From NCBI RefSeq assembly GCF_004138135.1, contig NZ_RYFD01000004.1, forward strand, positions 1-64,000: a stretch of 64,000 bases of DNA, read 5' to 3'. Of the stretch, positions 52,407 through 63,319 are shown piece by piece (positions within the stretch are counted from its first letter, which is position 1; each line of letters opens with the position of its first letter). This DNA comes from Candidatus Oscillochloris fontis. GTDB lineage: Bacteria > Chloroflexota > Chloroflexia > Chloroflexales > Chloroflexaceae. A program made the position numbers and the translations under genes. A model generated the notes under the pieces. It did not search any database and had not been told where the DNA came from. It saw only the letters and a program-made list of their open reading frames with translations.

Positions 52407-52589
52407 GTAATTTCCGCGTATTTTACCGAAACTTTACACAAACCTTAACCTACGTTCAAAAAACCCTGCTACTATACATATCACCGTGATATGGAACCTA
52501 TAGCCCCGGACTCTGAAAGTCACTGGGTTGCACCCCGCTCGCAACGAGCATGTGGTGTTCACTATGGCTTTGTGCGTCCATCTTGGGGG

Positions 52590-52748
52590 CAGAGCATGGG
52601 CAAAGTCCTTGGGGCTGCGCCCCAAACCCTACGTTTTTGTTGTTTTTTGGCGGCGAAGCCGCCAAAAAACAACAAAAAAAGATCTTCGGGGGCGGCGAAG
52701 CCGCCCCCGAACCCCCACCGGAGGTGATGGGGGTAGGCACATGCTCTG
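52590..52748. mobile_element. family A MITE-like repeat, copy 7 (complete, reversed)
   Basis: Outer CAGAGCATG/CATGCTCTG inverted ends; inside, in reverse order to copy 3, the TTGGGGC-TGC-GCCCCAA hairpin, a ~21-bp stem with loop GAA, the AGATCTTC spacer, the GGGGGCGGC hairpin and CCCCCACCGGAGGTGATGG. It occupies much of the 435-base gap upstream of the symporter pair. Confidence 0.85.
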
Positions 52749-54770: not shown

Positions 54771-56576
54771 TCATCTGGCCCTCACCCCCCTGCCCCCCTC
54801 TCCCGCTTGCGGGAGAGGGGGGTTCGCTTTCACCACCATTCGCCCCTGCTCCTTAGCCCACGCCAGCGCCTCACCCTGTTGCTCGGCATCGGCTCCCTCC
54901 AGCGCAATCCCCGCGCCTCCGGCGACTCGCCACGCTCCTAACGGTAACACCTCCCCCGCCACGGCCACGTAGCGCCACAGCACCTCGGCCACACCTGCGT
55001 ATGCCTCCGGCTCCACCTGCGCGACCCACGGCAGCACCAGCCAGAGCCGCAGCCGCACTTGGGAGTCATTCAGGTAGACATTCACGCGATCTAGGTAACT
55101 GGGTTGGTAGGGGAGTGCCCTACGCCAAGCACGCAGCGCTTCAACCCTCGGCAATTCATCCCTGACATGCAGGAAGAGATCAACCACACTACTCGGATTG
55201 GCTTGCATCAATGTATGCAGATCAGGTGTACACGAGTCGAGATCTTCAATGTTGAGATGCTGGACGATCTGGAACGTGCCTGCGGGCTGTGTGGCGCGCA
55301 CCGGCGGCATACCCTCGCGGCCATCCGGGGGATACCCCGCCTCCGCCTTCAACTCGCGCCGCAAGTGGCGCAACTCGACATAACTCAGGCCGGACGTGGC
55401 CAGAATCGTGTAGGGCGGGCGCTCCTGAAAGATGAGGCCGTGCTGGGCGGCTTCGCGGCGCAGGCGTGTACCCGGTAGCACCTGGAGCATGAAGGTGTCG
55501 TAGTGGGCTAGCCCGTGGGCTTGCAGGAAGGCGCGGGTCGTGGCCACTCCCGCCGCATCATCGCCGGGGAGACCGAGAATGACATCAAGCAGCACCTCAA
55601 TCCCCGCCGCTCTGAGCCGCTGCACCCCCGTCAGCCAGCGCTCTAAGTCGGTGTGGCGCGTAATGGTGCGCAGCACGACCGGGTTGGCACTCTGCAAGCC
55701 CACCTCAACCACCGCCACGTTGGCGGCTACCAGCGCTGCCACTGCTGCATCATCCAAATACTCGGCGCGCAGTTCGGCATAGAAGGTCTGCTGGCGATCC
55801 GCATTCAGTTCGGCCAGTGCGTACATGAGTGGCCAGAAGATCGGTTGCAGATTGAGGTTGGCCTCGACAAAGTGAACTCGCTTGATGCCCCGCTCGCGAC
55901 CCCATGCGATCTCGGCCAGCACCCGTTCGAGGCTAAAACTGGATTGCTCGTTATGGCGACCGTAGAGGCAGTAGCTACAGGTGTAGGGGCAGAAGCGCGA
56001 GATTTCGATGGGTTGCAGGCTATCCAACGGCAGATCGAGCCAGCCGGTGAGGTAGGGGGAGGGAAGTTGCATGAGGTCAGGGAGGGGCGTATGCGGCGGA
56101 GCGAAGAGCGGGGCCACCCCCGTGATCCGTGCGCGAGCGGCGGGGTCACACCCAGCCACCCACCAAGCCAGAATCTCCACGAAGGTGGCCTCACCTGGCC
56201 CCACCACCGCCAGATCAACCGCCGGGTGGTGCAGAATCCAGGGGTTGTCGGGCTGCACTTCGGGGCCACCCACCACCACCACCACATGCGGCAGGTATTC
56301 TTTGACCCGTTGGGCGATGCTGAGCGAGCGCTCGCTGTTCCAGCTATAGAGCGAGAAGGCCAGCAGATCGGGGGCATGCGCAACAATCGCCGCCACCACC
56401 GCCGCATCCCCGCCATGATCGACGAGAGAGCGGGGGAGAATGTTGAAACGCACGCGCTTCGCCCACCCCTGGGCTTGTGCATAGGCCACGAGGTAGCCGA
56501 TAGCTAAAGGGGTGTTGAGTAGTGGGCTGCTCGGCACCGGCAACTGGGTCAGCAAAACTGAAGGGAATGACTGCAT
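54771..56576 (-). CDS. B12-binding-domain radical SAM protein (DUF4080 type)
   Basis: 601 residues: cobalamin-binding domain (about 1-150, VVVVGGPEVQPDNPWIL), radical SAM core with CPYTCSYCLYG (CxxxCxxC) binding the 4Fe-4S cluster, then a DUF4080-like C-terminal region. The substrate is unknown. The ATG at 56576 (MQSFPSVLLTQLPVPSSP) gives the standard B12-radical SAM N terminus; the longer frame from 56708 is not needed. The last ~15 residues (PPLPQAGEGGRGVR...) are translated from an intergenic-type palindrome, so the true tail may be repeat-derived. Confidence 0.85.
   Translation of the reverse strand: MQSFPSVLLTQLPVPSSPLLNTPLAIGYLVAYAQAQGWAKRVRFNILPRSLVDHGGDAAVVAAIVAHAPDLLAFSLYSWNSERSLSIAQRVKEYLPHVVVVVGGPEVQPDNPWILHHPAVDLAVVGPGEATFVEILAWWVAGCDPAARARITGVAPLFAPPHTPLPDLMQLPSPYLTGWLDLPLDSLQPIEISRFCPYTCSYCLYGRHNEQSSFSLERVLAEIAWGRERGIKRVHFVEANLNLQPIFWPLMYALAELNADRQQTFYAELRAEYLDDAAVAALVAANVAVVEVGLQSANPVVLRTITRHTDLERWLTGVQRLRAAGIEVLLDVILGLPGDDAAGVATTRAFLQAHGLAHYDTFMLQVLPGTRLRREAAQHGLIFQERPPYTILATSGLSYVELRHLRRELKAEAGYPPDGREGMPPVRATQPAGTFQIVQHLNIEDLDSCTPDLHTLMQANPSSVVDLFLHVRDELPRVEALRAWRRALPYQPSYLDRVNVYLNDSQVRLRLWLVLPWVAQVEPEAYAGVAEVLWRYVAVAGEVLPLGAWRVAGGAGIALEGADAEQQGEALAWAKEQGRMVVKANPPLPQAGEGGRGVRAR
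54782..54826. repeat. CTCACCCCCCTGCCCCCCTC / CGGGAGAGGGGGG repeat
   Basis: A common bacterial intergenic repeat type with hairpin CCCCCCTCTCCCGC-TT-GCGGGAGAGGGGGG. It forms both the 3' end of the radical SAM gene and a likely terminator for the convergent symporter gene. Confidence 0.75.
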
Positions 56577-56690
56577 AGGTGGCTCAACGCCCCCGCCTCC
56601 CCCGCGCCTGCCCGTCTTTACTTTCTCAAAACTTCTGGGTTGGGGGAGTATAGGCGAGGATGGGGATTCTGTCAAATCAAAAAAATCTAT

Positions 56691-56719
56691 TTGACATCTT
56701 TTGCCCATCCTGCTATACT
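56691..56719 (+). promoter_or_regulatory. consensus sigma-70 promoter of the lysine operon
   Basis: TTGACA (56691-56696), 17-base spacer, TATACT (56714-56719). It is the strongest promoter match in the window on the plus strand and lies about 45 bases before the leader peptide. Confidence 0.85.
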
Positions 56720-56763
56720 CCGCCCGTCAGCCAACGAGCAAAGTAAGTGAAGACTAAACGGCC

Positions 56764-56826
56764 ATGCCCATTGCCATCTCGAAGCAGGTTAAGCGCGTGA
56801 AGAAGCCAGCCCACCGGTCTGGTTAG
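56764..56826 (+). CDS. lysine-rich leader peptide of the lysine operon
   Basis: A 20-codon open frame (ATG 56764, TAG 56824-56826) encoding MPIAISKQVKRVKKPAHRSG. Four of 20 codons are AAG Lys (at 56782, 56791, 56800 and 56803, the last two adjacent), followed by six codons to the stop. The codons for Arg-Ser-Gly-stop overlap the 5' arm of the antiterminator (56816-56823). The ribosome site is weak (GTGAAG region about 12 bases upstream). Its composition and position fit a ribosome-stalling attenuator peptide that senses lysyl-tRNA. Confidence 0.65.
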   Translation: MPIAISKQVKRVKKPAHRSG

Positions 56827-56891
56827 CGTTGCTTGCACGAGGTATCGAGTGTAGGCCCGGCTCACCAGACTAGGGGTGAGGCGGGTCTTTT
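56816..56891 (+). promoter_or_regulatory. transcription attenuator (terminator/antiterminator) of the lysine operon
   Basis: Terminator: CCCGGCTCACC (56856-56866) pairs with GGTGAGGCGGG (56875-56885), ten of eleven pairs, followed by TCTTTT. Antiterminator: GGTCTGGT (56816-56823) pairs with ACCAGACT (56864-56871), which overlaps the terminator stem and loop, so the two exclude each other. With Lys scarce, a ribosome stalled at the Lys codons leaves GGTCTGGT free; with Lys plentiful, it covers that arm at the stop codon and the terminator forms. Confidence 0.65.
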
Positions 56892-57024
56892 GCGTTATAC
56901 CGCGAATGTTGGGAGTTCGTTATGAAGCAGTGTCGCTTTATGCCAATGACGGTCGTCTATACGCCACGCCGTTGCCGCCCCGAGCTGTTCGGCTCGTGTC
57001 AAGTCAGACAGGAGTTGCTAGGCC

Positions 57025-58152
57025 ATGTCGTTCCCTGATCAGTTCTACTTCGTTGAAACCACCCTCCGTGAGGGTGAGCAGTTCGCCGGGGCACGTTTTA
57101 CGAGTGAGCAACGTGTTGCCATTGCCGATGCGGTTGATGCCTTCGGCGTGGAGTATATCGAACTCACCTCGCCCGCTGCCTCACCCCAGAGCGCCCGCGA
57201 CCTCGCCATGATTGCCCGCCGGGGACTCAAGGCGCGCATCCTGACCCACATCCGCTGCCACATGGACGATGCTCGCCTCGCGGTCGAGTCGGGGGTCAAT
57301 GGGGCCAATCTGCTCTTTGCGACCTCTGAGCAGTTGCGCCAGGTGAGCCACGGTCGGACCCTCGATGAGATTATCGAGCGCGCCGTTGAGGTCATCGCCT
57401 ACCTCAAGAGCCACGGCCTTGAAGTGCGCTTCTCCTGCGAAGATAGCTTCCGTACCCCCCTCCCCGATCTCATTCGCGTCTACAAAGCCATTGACAGCCT
57501 GGGCGTTAAGCGCATCGGACTCGCCGATACCGTCGGCGTTGCTTCGCCACGCGAAGTCTATAACGTGCTTTCCGCCATCCGCGCCGAAGTGAGCTGCGAC
57601 ATCGAGTTCCACGGCCATAATGATAGCGGCTGTGCAATTGCCAACGCCTTCTGCGCATGGGAAGGTGGCGCAACCCATATTGACGTGACGGTGCTGGGTA
57701 TCGGTGAGCGCAACGGTATTGCCTCGCTGGGCGGCATGATCGCCCGCTTGGCGGCGATAGACCCGGCGTTGGTCTCCCGTTATAATGTCGAGATGCTCAA
57801 CGAGATTGACCAGATGGTCGCTGAGATGGTCGGGATAACCATCCCCTTCAATAGCTGCATCACCAGCCCCACTGCCTTTACCCACAAGGCTGGCATGCAC
57901 ACCAAGGCGGTGCTGGCCGATCCGCGCAGCTACGAAATCCTCGATCCGAGTATGTTCGGGCGCACCCGCACCGTGGCGGTGGCGCATCGCTTGGTGGGTT
58001 GGCACGCGATTGCCGAGCGTGCCCGCGAACTGGGCATCTATCTGAGTGAATCCCAGGCGCGCGCCGCTGCCGCCCGTATTAAGGCGCTCGGCGATGAGCA
58101 TGATATTGATGGCACGACGGTTGATGAGTTATTGTACGAATACGCGGAGTAA
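57025..58152 (+). CDS. lysS: homocitrate synthase (alpha-aminoadipate lysine pathway)
   Basis: 375 residues of the DRE-TIM metallolyase family: [12 protein letters not shown] at the N terminus, metal-binding [12 protein letters not shown], and [13 protein letters not shown]. It condenses 2-oxoglutarate and acetyl-CoA to homocitrate. NifV and 2-isopropylmalate synthase are relatives; the context (homoaconitase, homoisocitrate dehydrogenase, LysW/X/Y) decides for lysine synthesis. It lacks the long C-terminal regulatory domain of LeuA. AGGAG lies upstream of the ATG. First enzyme gene of the operon, about 130 bases after the attenuator. Confidence 0.9.
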
Positions 58153-58164
58153 ATACAGGTAGTT

Positions 58165-59394
58165 ATGGCACAGACATTGAGCGAGCAGATCCTCTCGCAG
58201 GCGGCAGGGAAGCCGGTGCGCGCAGGTGAGGTGGCCACGGTGGCGGTCGATCTGGTGATGATGCACGATAGCCTTTCGCCCAGCATCATCAAGATCATGG
58301 AGCAGGAGTTGGGCGCTGAGCGGGTCTGGGACCCGGAGCGTGTCGCGGTGGTGGTGGATCACGTCGCTCCGGCGGCCACCGTGCAGACTGCCGAGAAGCA
58401 GAATGAAGTGCGGCGCTGGGTGCAGCGCCAGGGGATTACCCACTTCTATGATGTGGGCCGGGGTATTTCGCACCCGGTGTTGGTGGAAGAGGGTGTCGCG
58501 CAGCCCGGTATGGTGATCGTGGGCAGCGATAGCCACTCGACTGCCTACGGCTGCGTCGGGGCTTTCGGCAGTGGCATGGGGTCAACCGACATTGCCCTGG
58601 CGGCTGCCACCGGGCGCACCTGGTTCCGCGTTCCCGAAACGGTGCTGGTACGCGCCACCGGGCGCTTCCGCCCCGGTGTGAATGCTAAGGATCTGGCGCT
58701 GCGTGCCGCCCGCGAGCTGCGCGCCGATGGGGCTACCTACGCTGCCGTCGAGTGGCACGGCGTCGAGTTCCTTACCGTCATGGAGCGCATGACCCTGGCC
58801 ACGCTCTCGATTGAGGTCGGCGCGAAGGCCGGGTTGGTGCCGCCGGTCGGCATCCCCCAGGTCGCCCCAGAGTGGTTGCGCGTCGAGGAGGGTGCCACCT
58901 ACAGCCGGGTGGTGGAGGTGGATCTCGATACCCTCCAGCCCCAGGTGAGTGCGCCCAGCTTTGTAGACAACGTCAGCGATCTGGGCGATCTGGGCCGCGT
59001 GGCGGTGGATGTGGTCTACTTGGGTACCTGCACCAATGGCCACTACGAGGACATGGCCGCTGCCGCACGCATCCTAGCGGGCAAGCAGGTGGCCCCCGGC
59101 GTGCGCCTGATGGTCGTACCGGCCAGCCGCGATGCCATGCTGCGCGCCACCCAGGATGGCACGCTGGCCACCCTGCTCGCCGCTGGTGCCGCAATTGGTA
59201 CCCCCGGCTGCGGTGCCTGCATCGGTCGCCACATGGGCGTGCTTGGCCCCGGCGAGACCTGCCTCTTCACCGGCAACCGCAACTTCCGTGGCCGTATGGG
59301 CAGCCCTGAGGCCAACATCTACCTGGCTTCGGCAGAAGTTGCCGCCGCGACCGCGCTGGCCGGGTATATCGCCGATCCGCAAGACGTACTGTAG
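58165..59394 (+). CDS. lysT: homoaconitase large subunit
   Basis: 409 residues, aconitase-family large subunit of the IPM-isomerase/homoaconitase type. The 4Fe-4S ligands are in YLGTCTNGHYED and GTPGCGACIGRHMG (Cys-x2-Cys), and VGSDSHSTAYGCVGAFGSGMGS is the substrate-binding motif. It isomerises homocitrate to homoisocitrate with LysU. Placement 12 bases after the homocitrate synthase gene supports the lysine rather than the leucine role. Confidence 0.9.
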   Translation: MAQTLSEQILSQAAGKPVRAGEVATVAVDLVMMHDSLSPSIIKIMEQELGAERVWDPERVAVVVDHVAPAATVQTAEKQNEVRRWVQRQGITHFYDVGRGISHPVLVEEGVAQPGMVIVGSDSHSTAYGCVGAFGSGMGSTDIALAAATGRTWFRVPETVLVRATGRFRPGVNAKDLALRAARELRADGATYAAVEWHGVEFLTVMERMTLATLSIEVGAKAGLVPPVGIPQVAPEWLRVEEGATYSRVVEVDLDTLQPQVSAPSFVDNVSDLGDLGRVAVDVVYLGTCTNGHYEDMAAAARILAGKQVAPGVRLMVVPASRDAMLRATQDGTLATLLAAGAAIGTPGCGACIGRHMGVLGPGETCLFTGNRNFRGRMGSPEANIYLASAEVAAATALAGYIADPQDVL

Positions 59395-59550: not shown

Positions 59551-60051
59551 ATGGCCCGTGTCTGGATCTTCGGCCAGGACATCAACACCGACCAGATCGT
59601 CCCTGGCCGTTACGCGCCGATCATGCTCAAGAATGAGGATGATCTGCGCCTCTACCCGTTTGTCGAACATCGCCCCGAATTTGCCTCGACGGTGCGCTCC
59701 GGTGACATCATTGTGGCCGGGAACAACTTCGGCTGTGGCAGTTCGCGTGAATATGCCCCGCTGGCGCTCAAGATGGTCGGGGTGGGCGCGATCATCGCGC
59801 CACTCTTTGCGCGCATCTTCTTTCGCAACGCGCTCAACCTGGGTATCCCCTGTTTCACCGCCGATCTGACCGGCCAGCTTGCCGATGGTGAGCAGGTTGA
59901 TCTGAATCTGGAAGCGGGCCGTATCACCAGCGCCGATGGTCGCGAGTTGGCACTGCCGCCACCGCCCACCTTCCTGCGTGAGGTCTGGTCTGCGGGTGGG
60001 ATCGTGCCCTTCTACCGCCAGCACGGGCGCTTTCCGGGGGAGGCCGCCTAA
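59551..60051 (+). CDS. lysU: homoaconitase small subunit
   Basis: 166 residues, the swivelling subunit of homoaconitase, with GRYAPIM near the N terminus and GNNFGCGSSREYAPLALKMVGVGAIIAPLFARIFFRNA, the family signature. It completes the active site of LysT. The ATG at 59551 has TGGAGG upstream; the frame is open back to 59419 only because it runs through a repeat. Its stop overlaps the next start by one base (TAATG). Confidence 0.92.
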   Translation: MARVWIFGQDINTDQIVPGRYAPIMLKNEDDLRLYPFVEHRPEFASTVRSGDIIVAGNNFGCGSSREYAPLALKMVGVGAIIAPLFARIFFRNALNLGIPCFTADLTGQLADGEQVDLNLEAGRITSADGRELALPPPPTFLREVWSAGGIVPFYRQHGRFPGEAA

Positions 60052-61067
60052 TGCGTGTCTGTGTCATCCCCGGCGACGGGATTGGCCCGGAGGTACTCGC
60101 GGCTGCCATCCAGGTGCTGCGGGTTGTTGCTCCCGATGTGGAGGTGAATGAGGCCGACGCAGGTTGGGCCACCTTCCAGCGGGTAGGCGTTGCGCTGCCC
60201 CCCGAAACCCTGGGCGCAGCGCGTGAGGCCGACGCGGTGCTGTTTGGCGCGGTCGCCTCACCTAGCCACAGTGTCCCCGGCTACCGCAGCCCGATTGTGG
60301 CGCTGCGCCGCGAACTCGATCTCTATGCCAACATCCGCCCCACCAGCAACGCGCAACAGCGCACGCCCGATGGGCCAGTGGTGGATCTGGTGGTGGTACG
60401 CGAAAATACCGAGGGCATGTATATTGGCCGCGAGCGGCTGGAGGATGATGGCGATACGGCGATTGCCGAGCGCCAGATTACCCGCCGCGCCAGCACTCGC
60501 ATTGTGCGTGCCGCCTATGATCTCGCCCGCAGCCGGGCAGCGGCAGGGCGAGCTAACCCCACCGTCACCATCGTGCATAAGGCGAATGTGCTGCGCATCA
60601 GCGATGGCCTCTTCCGCACGGTGGCGTTGGAGGTTGCAGCGGGCTACCCCGACATCCGCACCGATGAACTGCTGGTAGATGTGGCGGCTATGCGGCTCGC
60701 CCAGAACCCGGAGCGCTTCGATGTGGTGGTGAGTACCAACCTCTTTGGCGACATCCTCTCGGATGTGGCCTGCATCCACGGGGGTGGCTTGGGGCTGGCC
60801 GCAAGTGCCAATTTAGGCGAAGGCCGGGCGCTCTTCGAGCCGGTGCATGGCGCGGCTCCCGACATTGTCGGCAAGGGCATCGCCAACCCACTGGCCGCGA
60901 TAGAGTGTGTGGCGATGCTTCTTGAGTGGCGCCACCGGGTTGATGCCGCCCAGCGGGTGCGTGCCGCCGCCACGGCGGTGATCGCCCACGGTCCGCGCAC
61001 GCCCGATCTGGGCGGGGACGCCACCACCGCTGCGGTCACTCAGGCGGTGATTGATCGTTTGGGCTAA
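60051..61067 (+). CDS. homoisocitrate dehydrogenase
   Basis: 338 residues of the beta-decarboxylating dehydrogenase family (IPMDH/ICDH/HICDH): VIPGDGIGPEVL at the N terminus, RENTEGMYIGRE, HKANVLRISDGLF and NLFGDILSDVACIHGG at the cation/substrate site. It oxidises homoisocitrate to 2-oxoadipate with NAD(P)+. Sequence alone cannot fully exclude LeuB or isocitrate dehydrogenase; gene order makes the lysine role most likely. Confidence 0.9.
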   Translation: MRVCVIPGDGIGPEVLAAAIQVLRVVAPDVEVNEADAGWATFQRVGVALPPETLGAAREADAVLFGAVASPSHSVPGYRSPIVALRRELDLYANIRPTSNAQQRTPDGPVVDLVVVRENTEGMYIGRERLEDDGDTAIAERQITRRASTRIVRAAYDLARSRAAAGRANPTVTIVHKANVLRISDGLFRTVALEVAAGYPDIRTDELLVDVAAMRLAQNPERFDVVVSTNLFGDILSDVACIHGGGLGLAASANLGEGRALFEPVHGAAPDIVGKGIANPLAAIECVAMLLEWRHRVDAAQRVRAAATAVIAHGPRTPDLGGDATTAAVTQAVIDRLG

Positions 61068-61107: not shown

Positions 61108-61275
61108 ATGATCGCGACATGCCCTGAGTGCGCTGCTGAGATCAGCCTGCCCGCCGATACCCTGGAGAGTGAGATCATCTCGTGCCCTGAGTGCGGCGCT
61201 GAACTTGAGGTGATCAGCCTCACCCCGCCGACCCTGGCCTTGGCCCCTGAGGTGGAAGAGGATTGGGGCGAGTAA
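61108..61275 (+). CDS. lysW: LysW amino-group carrier protein
   Basis: 55 residues, too short for many gene callers but unmistakable: two CPEC zinc knuckles (residues 5-8 and 26-29) and an acidic C terminus ending EDWGE. LysW carries alpha-aminoadipate on the gamma-carboxyl of its last Glu, shielding the amino group through the following steps. A strong AAGGAG lies upstream. A hairpin follows before lysX. Confidence 0.95.
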
Positions 61276-61331: not shown

Positions 61332-62174
61332 ATGCGTATTGCTGTTCTGGCCTCGCGCGTGCGCGCCGAGGAGAAGTTGATCTTTGCTGAACTGGAACGT
61401 CGCGGCCTTGATTATGTGAAAATCGATGATCGTGAAGAGATCTTCGATCTGCACCAGCGCGAGTATCCGTTTGATGTGGTGTTGGAGCGCTGTATTCAAC
61501 ACAGCCGCGCCCTCTACATGCTCAAGATTTTCAACGATGCTGGAGTCCCGACGGTCAATACCTACCATGTCGCCAGCACCTGTGGCGACAAATTCCTGAC
61601 CACCCAGGCGCTGGTGCATGCCGGGGTACCCACGCCGCGCAACCTGCTCGCCTTCACCCCGGAGAGCGCCCTGGAGGGCATTGAGCAGATGGGCTACCCG
61701 GTCGTGCTCAAGCCCGTGGTCGGTTCCTGGGGGCGCATGGTCAGCAAGATCAACGACCGTGATGCCGCCGAGGCTATTCTGGAGCATCGTGATGTATTGG
61801 GCAACTACCAGCATTCGATCTTCTACATCCAAGAGTACATCAAGAAGCCCGGTCGTGACATCCGCTCGTTTGTGGTGGGCGACGACTGCATCGGGGCGAT
61901 CTACCGTGCCAGCGAGCACTGGATCACCAACACGGCGCGTGGCGGGCAAGCCTCGAACTGCCCGCTCACCCCGGAGTTGGCCGATCTGAGCGTGCGCGCC
62001 GCCCATGCGGTTGGGGGCGGTGTGGTGGCGGTGGATTTGCTCGAAACAGAGGACGGCCAACTGCTGGTGAACGAGGTCAACTACACGATGGAGTTCCGCA
62101 ACAGCATTGATACCACCGGGGTGGACATTCCGGCGCGGATCATTGACTACACGTTGCGTATCGCACGCGGGTAA
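61332..62174 (+). CDS. lysX: LysX, alpha-aminoadipate--LysW ligase
   Basis: 280 residues, ATP-grasp family (RimK-like). [38 protein letters not shown] and [18 protein letters not shown] are the nucleotide- and metal-binding motifs. It joins the amino group of alpha-aminoadipate to the C-terminal Glu of LysW using ATP. Adjacent lysW supports this over ArgX or RimK. AGAGGAG precedes the start. Confidence 0.93.
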
Positions 62175-62183
62175 GATCACGCA

Positions 62184-62274
62184 GGGTGGGGGTTCGGGGG
62201 CGGCGCAGCCGCCCCCGAAGATCTTTTTGGGTTGCTGGTTGACGGCAAAGCCGTCAACCAGCAACCCAAAAAAC
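62184..62274. repeat. family A repeat, copy 8 (partial), inside the lysine operon
   Basis: GGGTGGGGGTTCGGGGGCGG hairpin part, AAGATCTTTT spacer and a perfect 20-bp stem (62227-62246 with 62250-62269) around loop AAA. The stem sequence (TTGGGTTGCTGGTTGACGGC) differs from that of every other copy but remains fully paired. Confidence 0.8.
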
Positions 62275-62284
62275 GAGGAATACC

Positions 62285-63319
62285 ATGACACGGGTAAGTA
62301 TTGTCGGTGCCTCCGGCTATGTAGGTGGCGAGTTGCTGCGCCTGCTGCTCTGGCACCCCGAAGTAACGGTCGTTCAGGCCACTAGCGGGCGCAATGCGGG
62401 GCGCTATCTCTACCAAGTACACCCCAACCTGCGCGGGCGCACCAGCCTTCAGTTTGTGCATCCCGACAAACTGGAGCCGTGCGATCTGCTCTTCCTGGCC
62501 CTGCCCCACGGCGAGGCGGCACGGGCGATGCAGCGCTACACCGGCCTTGCCGAGCGCATCATTGACTGTAGCGCCGACTTCCGCCTGAGCGATCCTGCCG
62601 CCTACAAGCGCTGGTACGGTGAGGATCACCCCGCCCCCGAATGGCTGGGCCGCTTTGTGTATGGTTTGCCCGAAGTGAGCCGCGAGGCGCTGCGTGGGGC
62701 CAAATATGCCAGCGGGGTGGGCTGTAACGCCACCGCCAGTAATCTGGCCCTGCTGCCCCTGGTGCGCGCCGGGCTGATTGACACCAGCAAACCGGTGTTG
62801 ATCGAGGTCAAAGTGGGTTCCTCCGAAGGTGGTGCCAGCAGCACCGACAGCAGCCACCACCCGGAGCGCGCCGGTGCGGTACGCTCGTTCGCCCCGGTGG
62901 GCCACCGCCACACCGCCGAGATCGAGCAGGTGACGGGCCTGAGTACTCCGCACCTCTCGATCACCTCGGTGGAACTGGTGCGCGGCGCGTTGGCCACCGC
63001 CCACGCCTTTGCCGTCCGCCCCATCGCCGACAAAGACCTCTGGCAAGCCTATCGCGGCTTCGCCAAAGAGCAACCCTTTGTGCGTCTGGTGAAGGAGCGC
63101 CAGGGTATCTACCGCTACCCCGAACCAAAGATCTTGGCCGGGAGCAACTTCGCCGACCTCGGCTTCGCGCTTGACCCAGAGAGCGGGCGGATTGTCAGCA
63201 TCTGCGCGATTGACAACCTGATGAAGGGTGCGGCAGGCAGCGCGGTGCAGTGTATGAACCTGATGCTCGGCTTTGAAGAGACGCTGGGGCTAGAATTCCC
63301 CGGCCTACACCCGGTGTAG
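62285..63319 (+). CDS. lysY: LysY, LysW-aminoadipyl-phosphate reductase
   Basis: 344 residues of the N-acetyl-gamma-glutamyl-phosphate reductase (ArgC) family: VGASGYVGGELLRLLLWHPEV (NADPH-binding), catalytic Cys in YASGVGCNATASNLALLPL, and the His-containing segment in PVGHRHTAEIEQ. It reduces LysW-aminoadipyl phosphate to the semialdehyde. Context makes it LysY rather than ArgC. The kinase (lysZ), aminotransferase (lysJ) and deacylase (lysK) are not in the window and must lie elsewhere. GAGGAA lies upstream. Confidence 0.92.
   Translation: MTRVSIVGASGYVGGELLRLLLWHPEVTVVQATSGRNAGRYLYQVHPNLRGRTSLQFVHPDKLEPCDLLFLALPHGEAARAMQRYTGLAERIIDCSADFRLSDPAAYKRWYGEDHPAPEWLGRFVYGLPEVSREALRGAKYASGVGCNATASNLALLPLVRAGLIDTSKPVLIEVKVGSSEGGASSTDSSHHPERAGAVRSFAPVGHRHTAEIEQVTGLSTPHLSITSVELVRGALATAHAFAVRPIADKDLWQAYRGFAKEQPFVRLVKERQGIYRYPEPKILAGSNFADLGFALDPESGRIVSICAIDNLMKGAAGSAVQCMNLMLGFEETLGLEFPGLHPV

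Follow-up and report, generated by a model that had tools for sequence, protein, structure and literature searches.

The window (the whole stretch of DNA analyzed, 64,000 nucleotides from Candidatus Oscillochloris fontis) carries, on its plus strand, a promoter, a short Lys-rich frame, overlapping hairpins and a second small frame upstream of a cluster of lysine biosynthesis genes. The features are as follows:

56691-56719, plus strand: near-consensus sigma-70-type promoter, TTGACA-17-TATACT (11/12 positions), with TG before the -10 box
56764-56826, plus strand: putative leader peptide ORF of 20 codons, MPIAISKQVKRVKKPAHRSG and a stop codon, with four AAG Lys codons
56782-56805, plus strand: Lys codon cluster (candidate sensor), AAG at 56782, 56791, 56800 and 56803
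56816-56823, plus strand: antiterminator 5' arm GGTCTGGT, made of the last leader codons; 94.4% of cells paired in alignment A1
56832-56857 (limits approximate), plus strand: apical stem of the antiterminator hairpin, GCTTGCAC...GTGTAGGC, from folding
56854-56891, plus strand: intrinsic terminator, stem 56854-56866/56875-56887, TTTT tail
56864-56871, plus strand: antiterminator 3' arm ACCAGACT, pairing with 56816-56823 and overlapping the terminator 5' arm and loop
56922-57038, plus strand: uORF2, a conserved small ORF of 38 aa, overlapping the lysS start by 14 nt
57025-58152, plus strand: lysS, homocitrate synthase (TIGR02146, 441 bits over cut-off)
58165-59394, plus strand: lysT, homoaconitase large subunit (TIGR01343)
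59551-60051, plus strand: lysU, homoaconitase small subunit (NF010629; start inferred from the profile match)
60051-61067, plus strand: hicDH, homoisocitrate/isopropylmalate dehydrogenase family gene (TIGR02088, just below cut-off)
61108-61275, plus strand: lysW carrier protein (TIGR01206, over cut-off)
61332-62174, plus strand: lysX (TIGR02144, over cut-off)
62285-63319, plus strand: lysY/argC-type reductase (TIGR01850, over cut-off)

The profile matches and the gene order lysS-T-U-hicDH-W-X-lysY bore out the alpha-aminoadipate lysine operon proposed in the sequence-only reading and placed it in the alpha-aminoadipate/LysW type. The upstream elements described in that reading (consensus promoter, 20-codon frame with four AAG codons, terminator hairpin, and a competing stem whose left arm is the last codons of the leader) were all located at the positions given above. 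Given that Lys makes up 1.6% of the residues encoded by the genes of the window, at least four Lys in 19 codons would arise with a probability of ~2e-4. The terminator has a folding energy of -24.9 kcal/mol and was not flagged by a simple terminator scan of the window. In the window copy, the antiterminator domain gave a z-score of -4.5, with 0 of 200 shuffles as good, whereas the single-sequence fold of the whole 170-nt leader was only moderately better than its shuffles (z -1.4), as expected because the structures are alternative. By eye, there is no clear Shine-Dalgarno sequence in the window before the leader start at 56764. The Rfam scan of the window returned no family at gathering score, with neither a lysine riboswitch nor a T-box at the locus.

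Two further features of the intergenic DNA were observed. The promoter is one of a divergent pair (56647-56719), with a minus-strand TTGACA at 56675 leading to TATACT at 56647 and facing a B12/radical-SAM gene (54771-56573); the two divergent -35 regions form an inverted repeat, TGTCAAAT...ATTTGACA. Similar intergenic sequences translating to PPPKIFxxCxL... lie at ~52500-52740 and 62107-62290 of the window, the second with a strong terminator-like hairpin at 62193-62219, and the two have the appearance of an intergenic repeat present in dispersed copies.

A search for LysS of this type covered 61 genomes, and the upstream regions of ~43 loci of the host's order were read. The same parts precede lysS in ~40 same-order relatives (families f1-f3, of which f1 comprises Oscillochloris, Chloroflexus, Viridilinea and Chloroploca), and an equivalent promoter was also seen in the upstream sequences of relatives. 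Virtually every complete upstream region has a Lys-rich leader frame that ends close to the arm; the 37 leaders listed for the order have 2-4 Lys each (median 4; two only in L021), amounting to 18% of residues compared with 1.6% Lys in the window genes, and the last Lys codon lies 12-17 nt upstream of the antiterminator arm. In nearly every lysS-bearing relative examined within the order, the frame, Lys codons, antiterminator and terminator were kept, the conservation in relatives by which the sequence-only reading was to be checked. The leader ATG lies only ~9 nt downstream of the -10 box in L007-L010 and L025, which suggests that the leader-peptide mRNA may be leaderless in Chloroflexus and some others. 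Some relatives have weak U-tracts (Chloroflexus L008 and L009), and none was recognized in L010.

Compensatory change, the second check, was evident in the terminator, which in f1 was 92.6% paired with 22 double-change cells, a result matched by 0 of 500 shuffles. The f1 antiterminator arms (94.4% paired) are nearly invariant, so covariation within this family is weak (36 of 500 shuffles for cells paired; 1-12 of 500 for the whole hairpin on the main measures). Between families, the antiterminator showed compensatory or re-registered pairing: f3 retains pairing in a changed register (GAGTCTGG with CCAAGGCTC), as does L030 (GCGGGTC with GACCCGC, register shifted). The arms also prefer the partners of their own family, with duplex energies in f1 of -17.8 for own partners versus -11.6 for f3 partners, and in f3 of -21.7 for own partners versus -15.2 and -13.3 across families. 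All 42 folded loci gave a single long antiterminator hairpin, topped by an apical stem, between arm and terminator; the median z-score was -4.05, and in 36 of the loci at most 2 of 200 shuffles were as good. When the 20-nt arm alone was shuffled, z-scores in f1 were mixed owing to its high GC content, and the whole antiterminator domain gave a clearer signal. A pause hairpin (segment 1:2, from the KKP codons to the arm) was 87.7% paired, compared with 87.0% in shuffles.

The conserved frame, Lys codons, competing hairpins and lysine operon support the earlier reading of the locus as a leader-peptide lysine attenuator. We consider it highly probable that the locus is a ribosome-mediated transcription attenuator of the alpha-aminoadipate lysine operon, responding to charged tRNA-Lys. 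The parts, their geometry and their conservation are documented by sequence and comparison, and from these we infer leader translation, stalling and control of read-through. In the proposed mechanism, RNA polymerase would start at the 56691-56719 promoter with a ribosome trailing on the 20-codon leader. A shortage of charged tRNA-Lys would stall this ribosome on the AAG cluster and leave the arm at 56816-56823 free to pair with 56864-56871 in the long antiterminator hairpin; since this hairpin occupies part of the terminator 5' arm, polymerase is proposed to read into lysS-T-U-hicDH-W-X-lysY. With ample lysine, the ribosome would reach the stop codon and mask the arm, and the terminator (56854-56891) would form.

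This scheme was modeled by folding only the RNA left free by the ribosome, whose 3' edge was assumed to lie at +13 nt. For a ribosome with K7, K10 or K13 in its A site, the antiterminator was predicted to form before the terminator 3' arm is made and to stay in the minimum free energy (MFE) structure even with the terminator complete. At K14, the second Lys of AAG AAG, the antiterminator again formed first, but the full-length MFE structure was the terminator. With the ribosome at the stop codon, the terminator alone could form. In these modeled folds, the regulatory codons and the stop are positioned for the ribosome to select the structure, with K14 ambiguous.

A homologous element with a different codon run was found elsewhere in the same genome. 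A covariance model built from Lys attenuators only (R1) also matched a second site, more weakly, in many genomes (per-genome E ~4e-6 to 0.03). Among the sites read, the majority precede argG, or a phosphoglycerate-mutase-like gene with argJ downstream, and have Arg-rich leaders; gene names at the second sites of R1 and of a joint model (R2) come from reading the protein sequences. In the host's own genome, the homologous Arg-coded attenuator lies on the minus strand of contig C60 (34655-34764, locus L183) before argG, with the leader MIKDQNVSQQKRRRQRRPQPATRPG and a stop codon, and counterparts before argG or the mutase-argJ pair occur in ~25 relatives. R2, built on both Lys and Arg members, identified a single copy of each type in most genomes of f1 and f2. 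Judged by sequence, the amino acid specificity resides in the codon run, because the homologous scaffold with Arg codons precedes arginine genes in the same order. Model matches were also observed upstream of LysE-type exporter genes (L173, L175, L176, L189), where one leader is Lys-rich (AKQQKRAKKPDNVSG) and the others are Gln/Arg-rich, a poor fit to a simple lysine-starvation logic.

Because the lysine leader itself contains Arg codons (KQxKRxKKPxxR) and the chemistry of the two pathways overlaps, a genuine attenuator could instead respond jointly to the charging of Lys and Arg tRNAs. The window leader has two Arg codons, and most relatives have an Arg after the second Lys; however, the conserved feature is the Lys codons, and a separate Arg-coded copy stands before the argG/argJ genes. 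We therefore regard joint sensing as unlikely.

The second small frame, uORF2, shows its own pattern of conservation. In 26 f1 loci the core TPRxCRPELFGSCQVR is preserved, and most of the codon changes are silent (summed over sequence pairs, 1875 codon differences are synonymous and 845 non-synonymous; codon positions 1/2/3 carry 861/341/2244 differences); RPELF is retained in f3. The uORF2 profile matches lysS upstream regions only, with the remaining matches at noise level, and the peptide had no NCBIfam match and no credible Pfam match. In most loci it overlaps or abuts the lysS start, so translational coupling of the two frames is likely. A simple Shine-Dalgarno-sequestering hairpin in the f1 uORF2 was considered and was not convincing. 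In place of uORF2, f2 has frames in which a conserved Ser-Lys-Arg precedes a hairpin covering the lysS ribosome-binding site, an arrangement that, hypothetically, would suit a Lys-sensitive translational switch. uORF2 is a candidate regulatory peptide.

In f4 genomes (G042, G048, G051 and others; L170-L172), a Lys attenuator lies directly before lysT, and a close AAA-type lysS was not found in these genomes. The absence of uORF2 at these sites led us to reject it as a part of the attenuator. This absence also bears on the alternative that lysS is controlled mainly at the level of translation through uORF2 (56922-57038), with the upstream terminator setting only a basal level. Purifying selection on the peptide, its overlap with lysS and the f2 hairpin after the conserved Ser-Lys-Arg codons would fit such control, but the f4 attenuators exist without uORF2 and the attenuator parts are independently conserved, making this alternative very improbable. 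A more elaborate proposal, which we put forward tentatively and hold to be rather unlikely as a whole, is that lysS is under two stacked and differently built controls, the Lys attenuator and uORF2 as a nascent-peptide or codon sensor of lysS translation, with the attenuator drawn from a Chloroflexota scaffold family that is switched between Lys and Arg by swapping the codon run. A further alternative, also very improbable, is that the leader ORF is incidental and that the terminator is controlled independently of translation by a lysine-binding RNA or a protein that binds RNA: the long conserved antiterminator hairpin could bind something, but it matches no Rfam family, the Lys runs, stop position and spacing are conserved though the nucleotides vary (AAG or AAA), and the homologous scaffold carries Arg codons before arginine genes.

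Similar leaders are not confined to the host's order. A first LysS screen outside the order found almost no leaders and suggested an order-only element, a view overturned by the named set. Of 151 lysS upstream regions, 53 have a Lys-cluster ORF by strict criteria with a terminator after it; the second-ranking amino acid reached 11, and Lys on the opposite strand 1. Since the loci are related, the count does not represent independent events. Lys leaders with terminators occur in named Caldilineaceae (e.g., VAKKKSKKQKPD, with CTGTCTGG pairing to CCAGACAG), as well as in other Anaerolineae MAGs and one Fimbriimonadia MAG. Another leader form, with the conserved peptide LVKPLHKRGAKPRLQDWVPIA and a terminator before lysS, was found in Acidobacteriota MAGs (L127, L132, L134, L139, L140, L142, L151). 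By eye, a tandem pair of leader-terminator units lies upstream of lysS in L141 and L163. The lysine attenuator of the sequence-only reading is supported, and its breadth had been understated, given that similar leaders extend to further classes of Chloroflexota and to some other phyla and that an Arg version lies in the same genome.

Other sensors occupy the same operon elsewhere in the phylum. In f7, of the same class as the host, T-boxes precede the lysS operon (103.8, 85.6 and 85.5 bits, of which the first alone exceeds the gathering score), and by eye an AAG can be read from the alignment as the specifier. A lysine riboswitch precedes the operon in family f43 and in L066 and L158. Across other Chloroflexota, the orthologous lysS operon with a T-box or lysine riboswitch was found at L044-L046, L059, L060, L066, L079, L080, L083 and L158. 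Among the 61 genomes of the host's order, the lysine riboswitch RF00168 was found in none, and the T-box RF00230 was present away from this locus in 56.

Leader-peptide attenuation is a classical mechanism, and an attenuator of this type was reportedly described by Tsubouchi et al. (2005, J Biol Chem) for the lysine gene cluster of Thermus thermophilus. That system is reported to resemble ours in its pathway, its leader peptide upstream of the lysine cluster and its transcription attenuation, whereas Thermus belongs to a different phylum. The trp, his, leu and thr attenuators of E. coli likewise combine a leader ORF containing regulatory codons, an antiterminator competing with an intrinsic terminator and a stop that masks an arm; in contrast, the locus described here has Lys specificity and an antiterminator arm inside the last leader codons, and it matched none of the Rfam attenuator families. 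A survey that included Chloroflexi reported Rfam attenuators only for His, Leu, Thr and Trp, plus Ile/Val and Phe, listed none for Lys or Arg, and suggested a gammaproteobacterial origin of attenuators (Sun et al. 2013, PMC3766115). Our literature search likewise found no description in Chloroflexota, in agreement with the sequence-only reading; the kind of element is known, and the taxon, the Arg copy and the second frame appear undescribed. Our findings place lysine leader-peptide attenuation, and arginine attenuation by codon swap, deep in Chloroflexota and possibly beyond, and the Lys/Arg pair within one genome makes the swapping of codon runs directly testable. RF00168 and RF00230 share the position of the attenuator upstream of lysS in other Chloroflexota, although both are absent at the window locus. 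Exchange of sensors on orthologous operons has been documented, for example, between a T-box and a His leader peptide on hisS (Naville and Gautheret 2010, PMC2965389). The lysS operon resembles that case in that the same gene is under different RNA sensors by lineage, and differs from it in that three sensors occur within one phylum, so that a leader peptide, T-box or riboswitch on one operon provides a natural test of RNA sensor replacement.
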